DNA from: Syntrophomonadaceae bacterium
GTDB taxonomy: Bacteria; Bacillota_D; Dethiobacteria; DTU022
Length of the DNA: 5,578 nt
Assembly (NCBI GenBank): GCA_003564505.1
Contig: PXFD01000023.1
Location: forward strand, 1-5,578
Direction of reading: 5' to 3'
A model generated the notes under the pieces. That model ran no database searches and was not told the origin of the DNA. It saw nothing but the letters and a program-made list of their open reading frames with translations. A program made the translations under genes and the position numbers. Positions 1 through 5,578 of this stretch are shown piece after piece. Position 1 is the first letter of the stretch; the number at the start of each line of letters is the position of its first letter.

Positions 1-1730
1 AGTTAAGAGAACGCGGCCTGGATAGTGATTACCTGGTCGTGAAAACCGGCTGTAACGGTTTTTGTGCTGTCGGTCCGATTGTAGTTGTTCAACCCCAGGG
101 TGTTTTCTATCAAAAAGTAGGTATGGAAGATATTGCCTCGATCATTGATGACCACCTTCTTGGTGGTAATATAGTTGAAAAGCTTTTATACAAAGATCCT
201 CAAACAGAACAAACCTATACCAGTATGAATGAAATTGAATTTTTTACAGAACAGCAGCTTATTGCCCTGCGTAATAAGGGTTTGATTGATCCTGAAAATA
301 TTAACCATTATATTGCCCGAGACGGCTATAAAGCATTGACCAAAGCCCTGGAAATGACTACTGACGAAATCATTAAAGAAGTGACTGTATCGGGTATCAG
401 GGGCCGCGGTGGTGGCGGTTTCCCGGCCGGTATTAAGTGGCAGTCCTGTAAAAAGGCGATGGAAGAAAGGGAAGAACCATCCTACATAGTCTGTAACGCT
501 GACGAGGGTGATCCCGGAGCTTTCATGGACCGCAGTATTATAGAAACTGATCCACATTCGGTAATCGAAGGTATGCTTATTGCTGCTAAAGCCCTGCAGG
601 CTAAAGAGGGTTTCATCTATATCCGCAAGGAATACCCGCTGGCCATGGAACGGTTGGAAAAGGCCCTGGAGCAGGCCCGCTCAAGAGGTTTGCTTGGTGA
701 TTCAATTATGGGCACTGCTTTTTCTTTCGATATTCATATTCATCGTGGAGCAGGTGCTTTCGTCTGCGGTGAATCAACAGCCCTGATGGCATCCATGTCC
801 GGTAAAGCCGGAGAGCCTAAGGCCAAGTATATCCACAATACTGAATATGGTTACCGCGACAGACCCACAGTTTTAAACAACGTTGAAACCTGGGCTAATA
901 TCCCTGAAATAATTCTTAAAGGTGCCGACTGGTTTGCTGAAATAGGCACTGGTGAGGTAAAGAATAATCCCTGGAATGGTTCTAGTGGAACCAAGGTTTT
1001 CTCCCTGGTAGGTGATGTTAATAATACAGGCCTGGTAGAGGTGCCCATGGGCATTACTCTCCATGATATCGTCTACAAAGTGGGAGGAGGCATTCCAGAT
1101 GGCAGGAAATTTAAAGCTATCCAGACCGGTGGCCCTTCCGGCGGCTGCATCCCCGATGATATGCTGGACATGGGAGTTGATTTTGACTCGCTAACCGAAG
1201 CAGGCTCAATGATGGGCTCGGGCGGAATGATCGTAATGGATGATCATACCTGCATGGTTGATGTAGCCCGGTACTTTATCAACTTCCTGATAGATGAATC
1301 CTGTGGAAAGTGCACGCCCTGCCGCGAAGGTCTTTTCGCTTTAAGCAAAATTTTAACCCGCATTACAGAAGGCAAGGGCAGGGAAGATGATTTAGAGCAG
1401 CTGCAGGAGCTTTCAGAAACGATAGAGGCATCAAGCCTCTGCCAGCTCGGAGGGACTGCACCCAACCCGGTTCTAACCACCCTGCGCTACTTTGAAGATG
1501 AATATATCAAGCATATTAAAGATAAAACCTGTCCAGCCGGGATTTGCACTGAGCTGATAACTTACTCAATTAATGACAACTGTACCGGTTGTGTAATTTG
1601 TGCTAAAAACTGCCCGACAGAAGCAATCAGCGGTGAACCAAAAAAGCTTCACACTATTAACCAGGAAGACTGCATCAAATGCGGCATCTGCCTGGAATCA
1701 TGTAAATACAATGCAGTGGAGGTAAAATAA
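1..1730 (+). CDS. nuoF: HydB/NuoF-type NADH-binding flavoprotein subunit (5' end cut by window edge)
   Basis: This is an NAD(H)/FMN-binding electron-transfer subunit, cytoplasmic, of the HydB/HndC/NuoF family. The frame is open from base 3, so the true start lies upstream; the GTG at 39 is an internal Val codon. Numbering from that codon, C5 and C9 (CNGFC) and the following GP are the second half of a thioredoxin-like [2Fe-2S] domain whose first Cys pair is off-window. The glycine-rich FMN/NADH motif is at G122-G131 (GRGGGGFPAG), NADEGDPGA at 153-161 and GAGAFVCGE at 237-245. The [4Fe-4S] ligands are C422, C425, C428 and C468. A C-terminal 2x[4Fe-4S] ferredoxin domain has C515/518/521/525 and C545/548/551/555. 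Complex I NuoF lacks both added domains, so this architecture matches HydB-like subunits of multimeric, often electron-bifurcating, hydrogenases and formate dehydrogenases. A NuoE/HydC-like partner is expected upstream. The symbol nuoF is the family name, not a claim of complex I. Confidence 0.93.
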   Translation, partial: LRERGLDSDYLVVKTGCNGFCAVGPIVVVQPQGVFYQKVGMEDIASIIDDHLLGGNIVEKLLYKDPQTEQTYTSMNEIEFFTEQQLIALRNKGLIDPENINHYIARDGYKALTKALEMTTDEIIKEVTVSGIRGRGGGGFPAGIKWQSCKKAMEEREEPSYIVCNADEGDPGAFMDRSIIETDPHSVIEGMLIAAKALQAKEGFIYIRKEYPLAMERLEKALEQARSRGLLGDSIMGTAFSFDIHIHRGAGAFVCGESTALMASMSGKAGEPKAKYIHNTEYGYRDRPTVLNNVETWANIPEIILKGADWFAEIGTGEVKNNPWNGSSGTKVFSLVGDVNNTGLVEVPMGITLHDIVYKVGGGIPDGRKFKAIQTGGPSGGCIPDDMLDMGVDFDSLTEAGSMMGSGGMIVMDDHTCMVDVARYFINFLIDESCGKCTPCREGLFALSKILTRITEGKGREDDLEQLQELSETIEASSLCQLGGTAPNPVLTTLRYFEDEYIKHIKDKTCPAGICTELITYSINDNCTGCVICAKNCPTEAISGEPKKLHTINQEDCIKCGICLESCKYNAVEVK

Positions 1731-3739
1731 TGGCTACGAAAACAAAAGCCGGACCAACAAAATACGAAATCAGCATAAACGGTAAGGTAGCGACGGTTGT
1801 TGAAGACACATACCTGCTGAAAGCAGTGATGGATGCCGGGTTCAACGTGCCCACGCTTTGTAACCATAAAGATCTAACCCCGGAAGGTACCTGCAGGCTC
1901 TGTTTGTGCGAAGTTGAAATCAACGGCAAGAAAAAACTTGTTACAGCCTGTAACTATCCCGTTCGCGGTGAAATTAAAGTTAACACCAATACCGAGAAAA
2001 TTAAGAAACACCGTAAAAACCTGGCGGAAATGTACCTGGGACGCTGGCCCAACGTGGAAGCAATCCAGAATATCGCCAAGCTGTGCGGAGCAACTGATAA
2101 AGAAAAGTACAAAAGTGATATAACTGATGAAAACCCGAAAGCCTGTATTCTCTGTGGTCACTGCATCCGTGCCTGCAGTTCCTTCGTACTACAGAATATT
2201 TTGGGCTTTGCCGGCCGAGGCATTACACGCCACTTAACCATGCCATTCGGTGAAACTGATCCGCATTGCATTGAATGTACTTCCTGTGGATATGTTTGCC
2301 CGACTGGAGCAATCCAGGTTACTGATGACATGAATAACCCGGCCGACCCAGAACTGATCCGTCGTCACGGAATGAAAATCAATGCTATGATGGCTACGCT
2401 TGACGATGTACAAAACCGGATGCGTCAAGTTGGCACTGCCAACCTGGTAGAGGTCATGGATTCGTATGACCTTCTGCCTGTGCATAATTATAGGTTCGGC
2501 AGGCATAAAGATACCCATAAAATTGATTCTAAGGTTATGAAAAGCCGCTACTTTACTCAGGGAGCAGCAGACGGTTGCTGGGAAGGCTGTTCAATGGCCT
2601 GCGCCAAGGCTGTCGATGGGTTCGAGCTAAAGACAGGCCCCTACAAGGGGCAAAAGGTTGTCGTCGACGGACCTGAATATGAAACTGCTGCCGGCGGATC
2701 TAATATGGGCGGTTTTGACCTTGATTTCATTGTTGAATACAATTTTTACTGTGATACTTATGGCGTCGACACTATTTCTTTTGCTACAACTATGGCTTTT
2801 GTAATGGAGTGTTTTGAAGCCGGCATTATTACTGAAGAGCAAACCGGTGGCAAAAAACTTAATTTTGGCGCTATGGAGGATGCCTTAGAGTGTCTGCACG
2901 AAATGGCTCGTGGTGAAGGTTTCGGGGTCGATGTCGGGCAGGGCATCCGCCGATTAAAAGAAAAGTGGGCTGATGAGCTAGGCGCGGATCCCGGCTTCTT
3001 AAATGATATTGGAATGGAAGTAAAAGGCCTGGAATTTTCTGAGTATGTAACTAAAGAATCTCCGGCCCAGCAAGCCGGCTATGCCCTGGCCATAAAGGGG
3101 CCACAACATGATGAAGCCCTCTTGATATTTTTCGATGCTATTAACAACCAGATCCCTACCTATGAGGATAAAGCAGAAGCCCTGTATTATTTCCCCTTGT
3201 TCAGAACCTGGTTCGGATTGCTCGGTCTTTGTAAGTTAATATGGAATGATGTTGTTCCGCCTGACAATAGCAAGTATCCTCCAAACGAGGCTACAAAAAT
3301 ACCGGAACGTGTCGAAGACTTTCAGAAGTTCTATGAAGGAATGCTCGGCGAACCTTTGGATGAGAAAAAGATGTTACGACAGTCCGAGCGTGTATTTAAC
3401 CTGCAGCGCCTGATTAGTTACTATCTCGGTTACGGTACCAGGGCAGACGATATGCCTCCGCTTAGAGCGATCGGTCCTGCTACAGAAGAAGAATACATTT
3501 CCCGGGAAGAGCGCTATGACAAACAAATGAAAGAAGAAATTGGCATCGATCCCGAAGGTAAATCAACGGGCGAGAAATTAGCGATTACACGGGAGTTTCG
3601 TTACAAGCGGTACAACGAACTGATCGATGCAGTCTATAAAAAGCGCGGCTGGGATAATAACGGAGTTCCTACAGTTGATCATCTTAAGGAACTCGGCATA
3701 AATATCCCAGAAGTGTTATCCTTGCTGGATAAACCTTAA
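1730..3739 (+). CDS. Chimeric protein: HydA/NuoG-like [2Fe-2S] + 2x[4Fe-4S] module fused to AOR domains 2 and 3
   Basis: The predicted 669-residue protein is a redox subunit joining an electron-input module to a tungsten-type aldehyde:ferredoxin oxidoreductase body. Residues about 10-85 are a [2Fe-2S] ferredoxin (C44, C55, C58, C74). Residues about 135-198 are a 2x[4Fe-4S] domain (C139/142/145/149 and C180/183/186/190). The His/Cys-ligated cluster normally lying between them in HydA and NuoG is missing. From about residue 205 the sequence follows AOR domain 2 (GTANLVEV at 235-242, LLPVHN at 248-253, PEYETA at 315-320, DTYGVD at 342-347) and domain 3 (H460, C501 in GLLGLC, and the family-typical RGWD near the C-terminus). 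Candidate AOR [4Fe-4S] ligands are C283, C287, C291 and C501. No AFOR_N domain precedes domain 2. The start is set by GGAGG at 1718-1722 and a one-base overlap with the upstream stop, implying translational coupling. It probably passes electrons to the upstream flavoprotein and NAD+; substrate unknown. Fusion call firm, activity inferred. Confidence 0.9.
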   Translation: MATKTKAGPTKYEISINGKVATVVEDTYLLKAVMDAGFNVPTLCNHKDLTPEGTCRLCLCEVEINGKKKLVTACNYPVRGEIKVNTNTEKIKKHRKNLAEMYLGRWPNVEAIQNIAKLCGATDKEKYKSDITDENPKACILCGHCIRACSSFVLQNILGFAGRGITRHLTMPFGETDPHCIECTSCGYVCPTGAIQVTDDMNNPADPELIRRHGMKINAMMATLDDVQNRMRQVGTANLVEVMDSYDLLPVHNYRFGRHKDTHKIDSKVMKSRYFTQGAADGCWEGCSMACAKAVDGFELKTGPYKGQKVVVDGPEYETAAGGSNMGGFDLDFIVEYNFYCDTYGVDTISFATTMAFVMECFEAGIITEEQTGGKKLNFGAMEDALECLHEMARGEGFGVDVGQGIRRLKEKWADELGADPGFLNDIGMEVKGLEFSEYVTKESPAQQAGYALAIKGPQHDEALLIFFDAINNQIPTYEDKAEALYYFPLFRTWFGLLGLCKLIWNDVVPPDNSKYPPNEATKIPERVEDFQKFYEGMLGEPLDEKKMLRQSERVFNLQRLISYYLGYGTRADDMPPLRAIGPATEEEYISREERYDKQMKEEIGIDPEGKSTGEKLAITREFRYKRYNELIDAVYKKRGWDNNGVPTVDHLKELGINIPEVLSLLDKP

Positions 3740-3765
3740 CATCTAAAAGTATTGGAGTTTACTAT

Positions 3766-3966
3766 ATGATCACTATTAACAATAAGGAAAAACTTGAATG
3801 GCATGAAGGAATGACAGTTCAAGACCTAGTGGACAGGATGGGTTATGTTGTATCGATAATCACTGTTAGCGTTAATGGCCAACTTGTTCAAAAAGAAGAT
3901 TATGCAACCTCTGAAATACCCGACAATGCCGAGGTTAATGTATTCCATCTTGCTCATGGTGGTTAA
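3766..3966 (+). CDS. MoaD/ThiS-family ubiquitin-like sulfur carrier
   Basis: The product is a 66-residue beta-grasp sulfur carrier ending in Ala-His-Gly-Gly. The C-terminal Gly65-Gly66 is the hallmark of MoaD and ThiS, where the last Gly is adenylated and then thiocarboxylated to donate sulfur. The N-terminal strand (ITINN), the EGMTVQDLVD helix start, VSVNGQLV and the final VNVFHLAHGG all fit the family, and the length is normal. GGAG at 3754-3757 lies 8 bases before the ATG, and the gene starts 26 bases after the AOR-fusion stop, so it is very probably in the same operon. By sequence alone it resembles ThiS (thiamine thiazole) at least as much as MoaD. Because it directly follows an AOR-type gene, and such small carriers often accompany tungstoenzyme genes, a dedicated role in dithiolene formation for tungstopterin or molybdopterin is the favoured inference. 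No MoaE, MoeB or ThiF partner is visible here. Confidence 0.85.
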   Translation: MITINNKEKLEWHEGMTVQDLVDRMGYVVSIITVSVNGQLVQKEDYATSEIPDNAEVNVFHLAHGG

Positions 3967-3988
3967 CCTTTGATTTGCAGTAAAGTTA

Positions 3989-4033
3989 AAGCGGGAAAAC
4001 TGGTTTTAAACCTTGTTTTCCCGCTTATTAATT
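3989..4033 (+). terminator. Intrinsic terminator ending the redox operon
   Basis: A perfect 12-bp stem is formed by AAGCGGGAAAAC (3989-4000) and GTTTTCCCGCTT (4015-4026), with a 14-base loop that can add a small inner GGT/ACC pairing. The tail is T-rich but interrupted (ATTAATTT), so efficiency may be moderate. It begins 23 bases after the sulfur-carrier stop and precedes a new promoter, which fits the end of a transcription unit. Confidence 0.7.
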
Positions 4034-4042
4034 TAAACGAAT

Positions 4043-4071
4043 TTGACTTGTTGTTCAGATAGTGCTATAAT
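4043..4071 (+). promoter_or_regulatory. Sigma-A type promoter with extended -10
   Basis: The -35 box TTGACT (4043-4048) and the perfect -10 box TATAAT (4066-4071) are separated by exactly 17 bases. A TGC immediately before the -10 gives an extended -10 (TGnTATAAT). Transcription should start near 4078. It lies just after the upstream terminator and is the obvious promoter for the adenosine kinase and ahcY unit and its long leader. Confidence 0.85.
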
Positions 4072-4103
4072 TTAGAGGTAAAACATTATAAGAATTAACA
4101 TTT

Positions 4104-4151
4104 AAGCTGGAGAAAGAGGATAGCTTTTAATCATTTCCATCCGGCTTTTTT
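4104..4151 (+). terminator. Possible early attenuator hairpin in the leader
   Basis: AAGCTGGA (4104-4111) pairs with TCCGGCTT (4140-4147) over 8 positions with one G-U wobble. The stem extends inward by GAAA/TTTC (4112-4115 with 4134-4137) across a two-base bulge. Six consecutive Ts occupy 4146-4151, so it could release a leader transcript of about 74 nt. The loop is large and the stem imperfect, so this is tentative. Confidence 0.4.
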
Positions 4152-4242
4152 AATGAAGAGTAACACGGAGTGGAAGGGAAAGCTTGACCGGGTTGAGGGC
4201 ATATAAGCCGCTAGCTTTTATGGCCGCAGTTATAAAGATTTT

Positions 4243-4346
4243 AAAAACCTGTTTGGCTTAACGGATGGCTGTAATGAAGGCTGTTTTGAGAGAATTGTCT
4301 GAAACCAACCTCTGCCGTTGCTATCTGTAAAGATGCAGGTTTTTTT
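4243..4346 (+). terminator. Nested stem structure ending in a T7 run (terminator or riboswitch-like fold)
   Basis: AAAAACCTG (4243-4251) is perfectly complementary to CAGGTTTTT (4336-4344). Inside it AACGG (4260-4264) pairs with CCGTT (4315-4319), and ATCT-GTAA-AGAT (4323-4334) makes a short hairpin capped by a GNRA-type tetraloop. A seven-T run spans 4340-4346. The small hairpin can extend to TGC-T-ATCT/AGATGCA and act as a compact terminator, competing with the long closing stem for C4336 and A4337. Such mutually exclusive pairings are typical of transcription attenuation. No folding energy was calculated. Confidence 0.45.
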
Positions 4347-4378
4347 ATTGGAAACTTATTTGTTGGAGGAGATTATTA

Positions 4379-5398
4379 ATGACAGCTAAGGCAGGCGGAA
4401 AGCCTAAAGTTTATGGGATCGGAAACCCCTTAATTGATGTCCTTGCCCACGTCAGCGACGATGACATTGAAACACTGGAACTTGAAAAAGGCACTATGAC
4501 CCTTATTAACACTGAACGTGGAAATGAAATTTTAAAACACATTGATGGTCTGGAAAAACAATATTCTTGCGGTGGCTCAGCCCCAAATACTATGATTACT
4601 CTATCTGCACTGGGCATTGAAACTGCCCTTGCCGGAATGGTAGGTAGCGATGAGCTGGGTGATATTTATATAAAGCGTTTAGAGAGCAAAGAGGTTCTTT
4701 CAGATTTAACAGTTGTATCCGGTGGCGACACAGGAAGCTGTATTGTCCTTGTGACTCCTGATTATGAAAGAACTATGAGCACCAGGCTCGGTGTCTGCCA
4801 GGAATTTGGGCCGGATCAGGTTAATCACGACCGTATCGCTAATGCAGATTATTTTTATTTTACCGGCTACATGTGGGATACAGGTTCACAAAAAGAAGCA
4901 ATCAAGTCTGCTATCTCTACAGCCAGAAAAAATAATACAAAAGTGGCCTTTGATGTTGCAGATCCTTTCTGTGTTGAAAGGCATCGTGATGATTTCCACG
5001 ACTTAATCGAAAATTACGTAGATGTTTTGCTGGCAAATCGCGATGAAGCTCGTTTGCTGCTTGACTATGATGATCCGGAAAGAGCTTCAGCTGAATTGGC
5101 TAAAAAAAATGTTATCGCTGCAGTTAAAAACTGTGCAGATGGTTCCTGCATCACTGAAAACAACAGTAAAACCTGCCTGATTGATGCTTTTACTGTTGAA
5201 GCAGTTGACAGCACCGGGGCTGGCGACAATTATGCAGCAGGATTTATTTATGGCCTGATCAACGGCTATTCCATTGCTGAAGCAGGCAGACTGGCTTCTT
5301 ATATTGCCGCACAGATTGTCAGGCAAACGGGGGCCCAGTTTGATGAAAAAACGGCAAAAACTATTATACAGGATATCAATGAGGGTAAATTGCTTTAA
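4379..5398 (+). CDS. PfkB-family adenosine kinase
   Basis: The 339-residue protein is a ribokinase/PfkB-superfamily enzyme, cytoplasmic, predicted to phosphorylate adenosine to AMP with ATP. GIGNPLIDV (13-21) matches the adenosine kinase signature GNPLLDI, with D20 as the expected ribose-binding Asp. The di-glycine hinge GGSAPNT is at 65-71. The PfkB signature DSTGAGD at 277-283 supplies the anion hole and the catalytic base D283. The length is normal for the family and the frame is intact. GGAGG at 4365-4369, 9 bases before the ATG, fixes the start. The next gene is S-adenosylhomocysteine hydrolase, whose product adenosine is this enzyme's predicted substrate, which strongly supports adenosine over a sugar or other nucleoside. 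Transcription probably starts at the promoter at 4043-4071 and passes through the long leader, so attenuation there could control it. Another nucleoside specificity such as inosine or guanosine cannot be ruled out by reading alone. Confidence 0.88.
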   Translation: MTAKAGGKPKVYGIGNPLIDVLAHVSDDDIETLELEKGTMTLINTERGNEILKHIDGLEKQYSCGGSAPNTMITLSALGIETALAGMVGSDELGDIYIKRLESKEVLSDLTVVSGGDTGSCIVLVTPDYERTMSTRLGVCQEFGPDQVNHDRIANADYFYFTGYMWDTGSQKEAIKSAISTARKNNTKVAFDVADPFCVERHRDDFHDLIENYVDVLLANRDEARLLLDYDDPERASAELAKKNVIAAVKNCADGSCITENNSKTCLIDAFTVEAVDSTGAGDNYAAGFIYGLINGYSIAEAGRLASYIAAQIVRQTGAQFDEKTAKTIIQDINEGKLL

Positions 5399-5461
5399 AG
5401 TATTAACAGGTTAATTCCTGTCTTAAGTAATAGTATTTTAATTAAATGGAGGCGATTAAGA

Positions 5462-5578
5462 ATGGATTACAAGGTAGCAGACTTAAGTCTGGCTTCCTGG
5501 GGAAGAAAAGAAATTGATATTGCGGAGAAAGAAATGCCGGGTCTAATTGCGACCCGCGAAAAATACGCAGATCAAAAA
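5462..5578 (+). CDS. ahcY: S-adenosylhomocysteine hydrolase, N-terminal fragment (3' end cut by window edge)
   Basis: The frame stays open from the ATG to the last base and gives 39 residues. They read [16 protein letters not shown] followed by [10 protein letters not shown], the highly conserved N-terminus of adenosylhomocysteinase. The enzyme is NAD-dependent and reversibly splits SAH to adenosine and homocysteine, relieving product inhibition of methyltransferases. GGAGG at 5448-5452, 9 bases before the ATG, fixes the start. It lies 63 bases after the kinase stop with no clear terminator between, so the two are probably co-transcribed. The NAD-binding and catalytic parts lie outside the window. 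Confidence 0.92.

Follow-up and report, generated by a model that had tools for sequence, protein, structure and literature searches.

A probable two-chain, NAD(H)- and ferredoxin-linked oxidoreductase with an aldehyde oxidoreductase body split around a HydABC-type core in Syntrophomonadaceae and other uncultured bacteria

An important question raised by a 5,578-nucleotide stretch of a Syntrophomonadaceae bacterium (NCBI GenBank assembly GCA_003564505.1, contig PXFD01000023.1, positions 1 to 5,578 of the forward strand; the whole stretch is hereafter the window) is which kind of enzyme is encoded by its 669-residue open reading frame (ORF), where a hydrogenase-like electron-input module runs into the catalytic body of an aldehyde oxidoreductase (AOR). 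The first-pass annotation had read this fusion as part of a HydABC-type chassis with an exchanged catalytic module, NAD(H)-linked and possibly ferredoxin-bifurcating. According to the present analysis, the window probably carries most of the operon for a tungsten-dependent oxidoreductase of two chains, linked to both NAD(H) and ferredoxin and likely aldehyde-oxidizing. The first chain would comprise AOR domain 1, BfuC and BfuB, and the second BfuA with AOR domains 2 and 3, a HydC-HydB-HydA cassette having presumably been placed between AOR domains 1 and 2 during evolution. The coordinates are collected in Table 1.

The fusion carries Fer2_4 at residues 13-88 (Pfam, E 1.8e-13) and Fer4_7 at residues 139-194 (E 3.4e-6), with Fer4-type domains spanning about 137-196. 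As claimed at first, residues 1-200 form a BfuA/HydA-like module with one [2Fe-2S] and two [4Fe-4S] clusters, and the combination of [2Fe-2S] and Fer4 domains expected of BfuA in the Bfu family is present. The three clusters were judged by their cysteine pattern, as in 9mqx_A, which among PDB entries matches residues 13-200 best (E 9.5e-34) and has the same cluster cysteines in the alignment; from its chain names, we take 9mqx to be AmWOR1. Matches to the NCBIfam models for NADH-dependent [FeFe]-hydrogenase, HoxU and NuoG were confined to about the first 200 residues. Hydrogenase models matched only within residues 13-222, and instead of the H-cluster domain of an [FeFe]-hydrogenase HydA, AFOR_C (PF01314) occupies residues 216-657 (E 7.4e-92; 309 bits against a cut-off of 27), as expected if AOR domains 2 and 3 make up the C-terminal body. 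PF01314 was thus found as anticipated, whereas PF10588, also anticipated, was absent, like AFOR_N (PF02730), from the Pfam families matching the fusion at E ≤ 0.1. The proposed translational coupling to the HydB-like gene upstream is visible as a GGAGG followed by a TAATG, inside which ORF 3-1730 and the fusion ORF share one base.

AORs consist of domain 1 (AFOR_N) plus domains 2 and 3 (AFOR_C). The domain layout supports a HydABC-type chassis with another catalytic module, but that module, consisting of AOR domains 2 and 3 alone, is an incomplete AOR, whose domain 1 lies upstream in the relatives. In the window, ORF 3-1730 contains the FMN, SLBB, NADH_4Fe-4S and Fer4 domains of BfuB and is open at the left edge, with the expected BfuC and AFOR_N portions outside. 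Its full-length counterpart is a chain of 1065 aa in locus L002 (484-3681), whose fusion is 88% identical to that of the window; the fusion of L008 is 91% identical. A contig scan for relatives gave 33 loci, namely 22 with the fusion (L001-L022, all from metagenome-assembled genomes, L008 and L022 being truncated at their right ends), 10 whose AOR is uninterrupted (L023-L032) and one BfuA part without AFOR_C (L033). In four fusion loci (L001, L003, L005, L013) the contigs were cut off before the AFOR_N region; AFOR_N was found 5' of the fusion in all 18 that reach far enough, with L008 ending within it. In L009, for example, the upstream gene encodes a single chain of 1083 aa with AFOR_N at 50-263, a thioredoxin-like [2Fe-2S] domain (NuoE/BfuC) at 299-440, NuoF/BfuB at 638-1012 and a ferredoxin-like tail. 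AFOR_N, NuoE and NuoF form one chain in 12 of the 18 loci, AFOR_N-NuoE stands with a separate NuoF in three (L012, L015, L016), and AFOR_N is a gene of its own in three (L017, L018, L021); in L017 (4520-7287) and L021 (9171-11968) this gene is followed by BfuA-AFOR_C. AFOR_N is therefore joined to a HydC/HydB-like part in 15 of 18 loci, the order being AFOR_N-BfuC-BfuB and then BfuA-AFOR_C.

The NuoE and NuoF partners for which a neighbourhood survey had been suggested were found upstream at most of these loci, and since AFOR_N also lies there, mostly on the HydB-like chain, the exchanged catalytic module appears split over two chains with the Hyd cassette inside the AOR. A protein search with the L002 chain (7998 scored, 7018 at E ≤ 0.001) agrees: among the best 120 relatives, 115 had at least 80% of the AFOR_N positions filled, while AFOR_N was partial in three (P0203, P0211, P0214) and absent in two (P0220, P0222). 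Residues 6-210 of PfAOR (1aor) align with the start of the L002 chain (E 7e-25) and residues 238-460 with chain 2 (E 5.5e-22). A single-chain version was seen in none of the sequences examined; a candidate, a 1785-aa frame in genome G027, was rejected, as its AFOR_N-NuoE-NuoF lies in a different frame.

The fusion itself is genuine. Most of the sequences are metagenome assemblies, and the fusion gene of L010 (9629-11641) contains one in-frame TAA, its open frame beginning within the BfuA part, which could raise the suspicion of an assembly or sequencing artefact. This has practically no probability left and is already refuted by independent copies: AFOR_C matched, and the same joint recurs at 22 of the 33 loci, from many phyla rather than one assembly, and in the best 120 relatives, with fusion-family loci on contigs of up to 2.1 Mb (L043). 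The TAA of L010 is either a sequencing error or a sign of a pseudogene. In the fusion protein search, 7999 candidates were scored and the best 120 were analysed, conservation counts below referring to 121 sequences; these 120 were 67-97% identical across 97-100% of the query, and all align at the cluster cysteines of both halves. The 22 loci are labelled as Syntrophomonadaceae, one Syntrophobacteraceae, Krumholzibacteriia, Acidobacteriota, Myxococcota/Deltaproteobacteria, Eisenbacteria, Bacteroidales, Aminicenantes and a Kuenenia-labelled bin, and 16 of 80 genomes in the phylum of L009 match the fusion at E ≤ 1e-100. The Syntrophobacteraceae label belongs to L002, whose fusion resembles that of the window as aforementioned and whose halves fall among Syntrophomonadaceae rows in the trees; the label is possibly a binning error.

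The place of the cut can be read from uninterrupted relatives. AOR likeness ends after a KAIV strand in chain 1 and restarts at NNPAD in chain 2, a few residues past C190, the last BfuA cluster cysteine before the joint. The uninterrupted L028 reads ...KALVV...NNPADIDRL...NRM..GTA..LV, L024 and L026 being alike, and the window reads ...CPTGAIQVTDDMNNPADPELI...NRMRQVGTANLV over the corresponding region. NNPAD therefore also occurs in undivided proteins, and the pattern at the joint is variable among the 121 fusions (NNPVD in 18, NHPVD in 17, NNPAD in 7; approximately N-x-P-V/A-D/N). The uninterrupted AORs L023-L028 (Desulfobacteraceae and others, 706-720 aa) align to the fusion from residue 196-200 onward, are 51-56% identical to its AFOR_C half and have in common with it the motifs GLCK or GFCK, CX3CX3C and GPQHDEAW; unlike the split enzyme, they are single AFOR_N-AFOR_C chains without a Hyd cassette. 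The simplest reading of these alignments would be a HydC-B-A cassette inside an AOR at the border of domains 1 and 2. The split form would be derived from the undivided one, since characterized AORs are undivided.

Whether the two halves belong together was examined for 12 of the 33 relative loci by searching their genomes. In all 12, every full-size AFOR_N outside the fusion locus was in one frame with an AFOR_C, and the lone full-size AOR halves were those at the split locus; in G007, G009 and G012, one AFOR_N and one AFOR_C were found in total, both at this locus. What remained were three short pieces, namely 39 model positions close to the start of a contig (G001 C174), 50 positions (G001 C189) and a partial AFOR_C from contig base 7 (G002 C211), together with one AFOR_N match below cut-off (G004 C739); another AOR frame of G002 (C103) contains an internal TAA. 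Across the 18 split loci, pairwise distances measured on one half correlate with those on the other at 0.90, a value that none of 2000 permutations reached but that could come from shared ancestry alone. Trees were built from 28 loci with both halves, the window and the four truncated loci being left out as their AFOR_N is cut off; L032 sits on a very long branch, and in the AFOR_C tree the row of L022 is filled to just 44%. Both trees unite the 15 main split rows in a single clade (support 98/99 and 99/100) and pair L017 with L018 as sisters, while L021 changes place. The labels split and undivided require two changes in the AFOR_N tree and three in the AFOR_C tree, and a single change sufficed in 12% and 0% of the bootstrap trees, respectively. 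Because of the label changes in the AFOR_C tree, the split arose repeatedly, or was reversed, or L021 is misplaced; a single origin is not claimed.

For the electron-transferring core, the Bfu ligands described in PMC9304861 were placed on the L002 chain via alignment with the NiFe-Bfu HydB (7t2r_B), and chain lengths were compared among the best 120 relatives of that chain. All 92 long chains keep the C1, B5, B1, B3 and B4 cysteines together with B2 His994, C1000 and C1005 (L002 numbering); C907 is present in 91 of them, and C476 is replaced by Thr in 24 and retained in the remaining 68, the window having Thr. The window keeps every core ligand inside it, namely the B1 cysteines, the equivalents of C907, H994, C1000 and C1005, and the eight B3/B4 cysteines. 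The thioredoxin-like [2Fe-2S] domain of BfuC falls off the window edge; it is present in L009, and its four cysteines are kept in 92/92 long chains. The B2 ligands, including His525, and the B3/B4 clusters are reported as absent from non-bifurcating homologues, and the window has the residues for both. In 11 of 16 middle-length chains B5 is missing, with C1, B1, B3 and B4 kept, several of the other five being partial. Nine of 12 short chains lack the B5, B3 and B4 cysteines and have at most one of C1 but all of B1; of the other three, P0220 and P0222 have full clusters without an AFOR_N, and P0229 is named as partial. L011 (7620-9971, 783 aa) and L020 (7608-9956, 782 aa) also have a short chain 1 with no C1, B5, B3 or B4 cysteines, where B1 and most B2 ligand residues are present. 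All counted B2 residues are kept in seven of those nine short chains and in L020, and therefore B2 residues alone are no proof of bifurcation.

The suggestion of an NAD(H)-linked, possibly bifurcating enzyme agrees with the long form, whose cluster ligands are all conserved; L011 and L020 have lost the clusters of the ferredoxin branch. Because such reduced forms exist without B5, B3, B4 and all or most C1 cysteines, the family can probably do without ferredoxin coupling. The same split AOR might accordingly be a plain NAD-linked enzyme in which ferredoxin plays no role, or it might run in reverse, with NADH and reduced ferredoxin driving carboxylate to aldehyde (confurcation). The reduced forms, which keep the B1 cysteines, and the description of the NiFe-Bfu reaction as fully reversible (PMC9304861) speak for this, whereas the B1 cysteines, the B2 His/Cys and the eight B3/B4 cysteines of the window, like the set kept in 92/92 long chains, speak against it, and we regard it as rather unlikely. 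Comparing the long, middle and short forms would test directly which clusters HydABC-type bifurcation needs.

The best solved relative of the AFOR_C half is 8c0z (238-595 aligned with chain 2, E 2.4e-26), which we take to be an Aromatoleum enzyme. Cysteines 283, 287, 291 and 501 of the fusion, corresponding to those of PfAOR that we presume to bind the [4Fe-4S] cluster, are each kept in 121/121 sequences. In chain 1, K101, N118 and Q222-A-G-R-G-G, to which we ascribe a role in pterin binding, are invariant in 56 sequences (alignment A2). Four residues named for most aldehyde oxidizers (PMC13328260), Thr243, Glu313, Tyr427 and His448 of PfAOR, correspond to T236, E318, Y439 and H460 of the fusion, each identical in 121/121, so that the active-site residues and [4Fe-4S] cysteines of a WorL are all present. 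A ThiS-like gene accompanies the fusion at 19 of 22 loci (L008 and L022 being cut off and none seen at L017), and a ThiF-like gene at 7 of 22, with only a short match at L018. One of the divergent genes beside L009 matches WtpA (310 bits, cut-off 243), and others resemble the permease WtpB and the ATPase WtpC at scores under the respective cut-offs; L042, from the same phylum, is also beside a WtpA (293 bits, above cut-off). A role in making the pterin cofactor is attributed to WorX and ThiF genes (PMC13328260), and the ThiS, ThiF and WtpA neighbours are indirectly suggestive of a tungsten bis-pterin in the split enzyme.

These data bear on two further explanations. The AOR half might be a degenerate structural domain without an active site and the AFOR_N of chain 1 a relic, as loss of function could precede separation of the halves; this is very improbable given the invariant catalytic, cluster and chain-1 residues, the linked ThiS, ThiF and WtpA genes and the fact that the halves remain together across phyla. 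The same architecture could also act on a substrate other than an aldehyde, as in the AOR relative BamB, a benzoyl-CoA reductase. The characterized AORs are only distantly similar (8c0z being the nearest), the second pterin motif is changed, and another WOR, CsWOR41, is described as lacking aldehyde activity (PMC13328260); the conservation of the four residues named for most aldehyde oxidizers points the other way, and we consider a different substrate possible though unlikely.

Applied to the aldehyde-oxidizing enzyme that we favour, this domain arrangement would place two contacts between the chains, one where AFOR_N and AFOR_C close around a single bis-pterin tungsten site and the other where BfuA docks on BfuB. 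Electrons from aldehyde oxidation at tungsten would pass via the AOR [4Fe-4S] cluster directly to the BfuA clusters, without the WorS polyferredoxin of AmWOR1, and from there to the FMN of BfuB, NAD+ and, via the B2-B4 clusters, ferredoxin. In Bfu enzymes, NAD binding is proposed to shift the C-terminal domain of BfuC and thereby gate bifurcation (PMC9304861). Because AOR domain 1 is directly fused to BfuC, nucleotide binding might mechanically open and close the tungsten site, making the active site and the electron gate one moving part; we hold this to be doubtful. If it were true, the long (full core), middle (no B5) and short (no ferredoxin branch) forms would show the build-up or stripping of a bifurcating enzyme.

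Several observations weigh against the enzyme proposed here. The AFOR_N of the window's own chain 1 is off the edge, and a start with this domain is only suggested by its relatives. L017 has AFOR_N and the fusion, yet no NuoE/F match was found in its flanks, and none was seen at L021, where the contig ends at the fusion; several NuoF homologues occur elsewhere in both genomes. The second pterin motif of PfAOR, D489xxGLC-D495, reads GLLGLCK in the fusion. The uninterrupted relatives read alike, and a change caused by the split was rejected for this reason. Supported branches force at least two split/undivided changes in the AFOR_C tree (at least one in the AFOR_N tree), and no conserved neighbour indicating a substrate was found among the fusion loci compared. 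Finally, a 2025 review points out that the electron distribution demonstrated for WOR1 includes no endergonic step (PMC12096430).

Among known systems, the Wor-Bfu enzyme AmWOR1 of Acetomicrobium mobile (BfuABCSL, WorABC plus WorSL) likewise has an AOR-type catalytic protein feeding a HydABC-type core, and 9mqx_B matches the BfuB part of L002 over 14-613 of 622. AmWOR1, however, is built from five separate subunits, among them the polyferredoxin WorS and a WorL in one piece (PMC13328260), whereas the split enzyme has two chains, with the AOR cut at the border of domains 1 and 2. Of the genes scanned next to the operon in L019 and L006, none was WorS-like or rich in ferredoxin domains. In the 2026 WOR classification, WorL proteins have both AOR domains, and the bifurcating Class IV (WorLSABC) has five subunits (PMC13328260). 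Lacking AFOR_N, the 669-aa fusion falls outside this definition of a WorL by one feature, although it would function as a WorL; instead of five subunits, there are two chains plus ThiS. PMC9304861 places Wor-Bfu in Type 2, with S and L as subunits of their own; the Type 1 fusions named in the part consulted are FeFe, Nfn, Fdh and F420, with no Wor among them. Like HydABC hydrogenases and other Type 1 Bfu enzymes, the split enzyme has a catalytic domain within the BfuA polypeptide and a conserved BfuBC core, but only two of the three AOR domains are on BfuA, the third being on the BfuC-BfuB chain. Benzoyl-CoA reductase BamB-I also combines an AOR-family catalytic subunit with HydABC homologues (PMC9304861, PMC13328260); unlike the split enzyme, it has eight subunits with an undivided BamB and an HdrA-type module, and its match to the AFOR_C half is weak (4z3w_A, E 1.5e-5). 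The non-bifurcating HydAB of Syntrophus aciditrophicus has its gamma part (NuoE) fused to the N-terminus of beta (NuoF), as here, and its beta differs from the bifurcating ones in the number of Fe-S centres; it is a hydrogenase, with no AOR part mentioned in the sections consulted (PMC7311640).

No description of a split AOR of this kind was found in the open-licence papers searched, judged by titles and the beginnings of abstracts. A word search of the main text of PMC13328260 gave no "split", "fusion" or "Bfu", and one of PMC11406978 gave no "aldehyde" or "tungsten". If the proposed architecture is true, it would represent an AOR-family enzyme whose catalytic body extends over two polypeptides with the redox partner inserted within, and a five-subunit bifurcating tungsten enzyme condensed to two chains. 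The split type occurs in many phyla of uncultured bacteria and would be missed by surveys requiring both AOR domains per protein.

Table 1. Features of the window and their positions
Feature	Position	Strand	Basis
3' part of first chain, BfuB/HydB	3..1730	+	PF01512, PF10531 (SLBB), PF10589, Fer4 families
FMN/NADH-binding domain of BfuB	about 381-905	+	within ORF 3-1730
NADH_4Fe-4S of BfuB	about 1260-1514	+	within ORF 3-1730
C-terminal 2[4Fe-4S] of BfuB	about 1578-1715	+	within ORF 3-1730
GGAGG, Shine-Dalgarno-like (1718-1722), and TAATG stop/start overlap (1728-1732)	1718..1732	+	sequence
Second chain, BfuA-AFOR_C fusion	1730..3739	+	669 aa ORF
[2Fe-2S] domain	1766..1993	+	Cys 44, 55, 58, 74, each 121/121 sequences
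Two [4Fe-4S] sites	2144..2311	+	Cys 139/142/145/149 and 180/183/186/190, each 121/121
Insertion joint NNPAD, residues 202-206	2333..2347	+	AOR similarity resumes here
AOR domains 2 and 3	2333..3700	+	T236, E318, Y439, H460 and cluster Cys 283/287/291/501, each 121/121
ThiS/MoaD-like (WorX-like) sulfur carrier, 66 aa	3766..3966	+	TIGR01683, 47.4 bits, cut-off 37.45
PfkB-family kinase	4379-5398		in the window
Start of S-adenosylhomocysteine hydrolase	5462-5578		in the window; PF05221, E 1.6e-13

Downstream of the ThiS-like gene, the genes for the PfkB kinase and S-adenosylhomocysteine hydrolase are possibly a separate transcription unit. A sigma-70-like site (11/12) lies at 4043-4071 between the fusion operon and these purine/S-adenosylmethionine-salvage genes, in a scan that gave 3 sites against 2.0 in shuffles and no terminator; no Rfam match for a regulatory RNA was obtained at 3960-4400 up to E 1. 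In L003 and L006, the downstream genes are likewise for purine/methylthioadenosine salvage (phosphorylase, MtnA), with a deaminase-like amidohydrolase in L003. No substrate was drawn from this context, because the sigma-70-like site intervenes and other phyla have other neighbours; the salvage genes adjoin the Syntrophomonadaceae loci. Upstream of the Syntrophomonadaceae operon, L019 (176-5183, with relatives in L006 and L007) encodes a xanthine-dehydrogenase-like Mo hydroxylase and a YqeC-MobA-like fusion, and a c-di-GMP-I riboswitch precedes an actin-like gene in L019 (5325-5414) and L006 (5433-5522). Apart from the split loci, the uninterrupted AOR of L026 (5893-13811), which is of the same lineage as the fusion's AFOR_C half, adjoins two FAD oxidoreductases and a formate-tetrahydrofolate ligase (FTHFS), a hint that an aldehyde derived from an amine, for instance formaldehyde, may be oxidized in that lineage.

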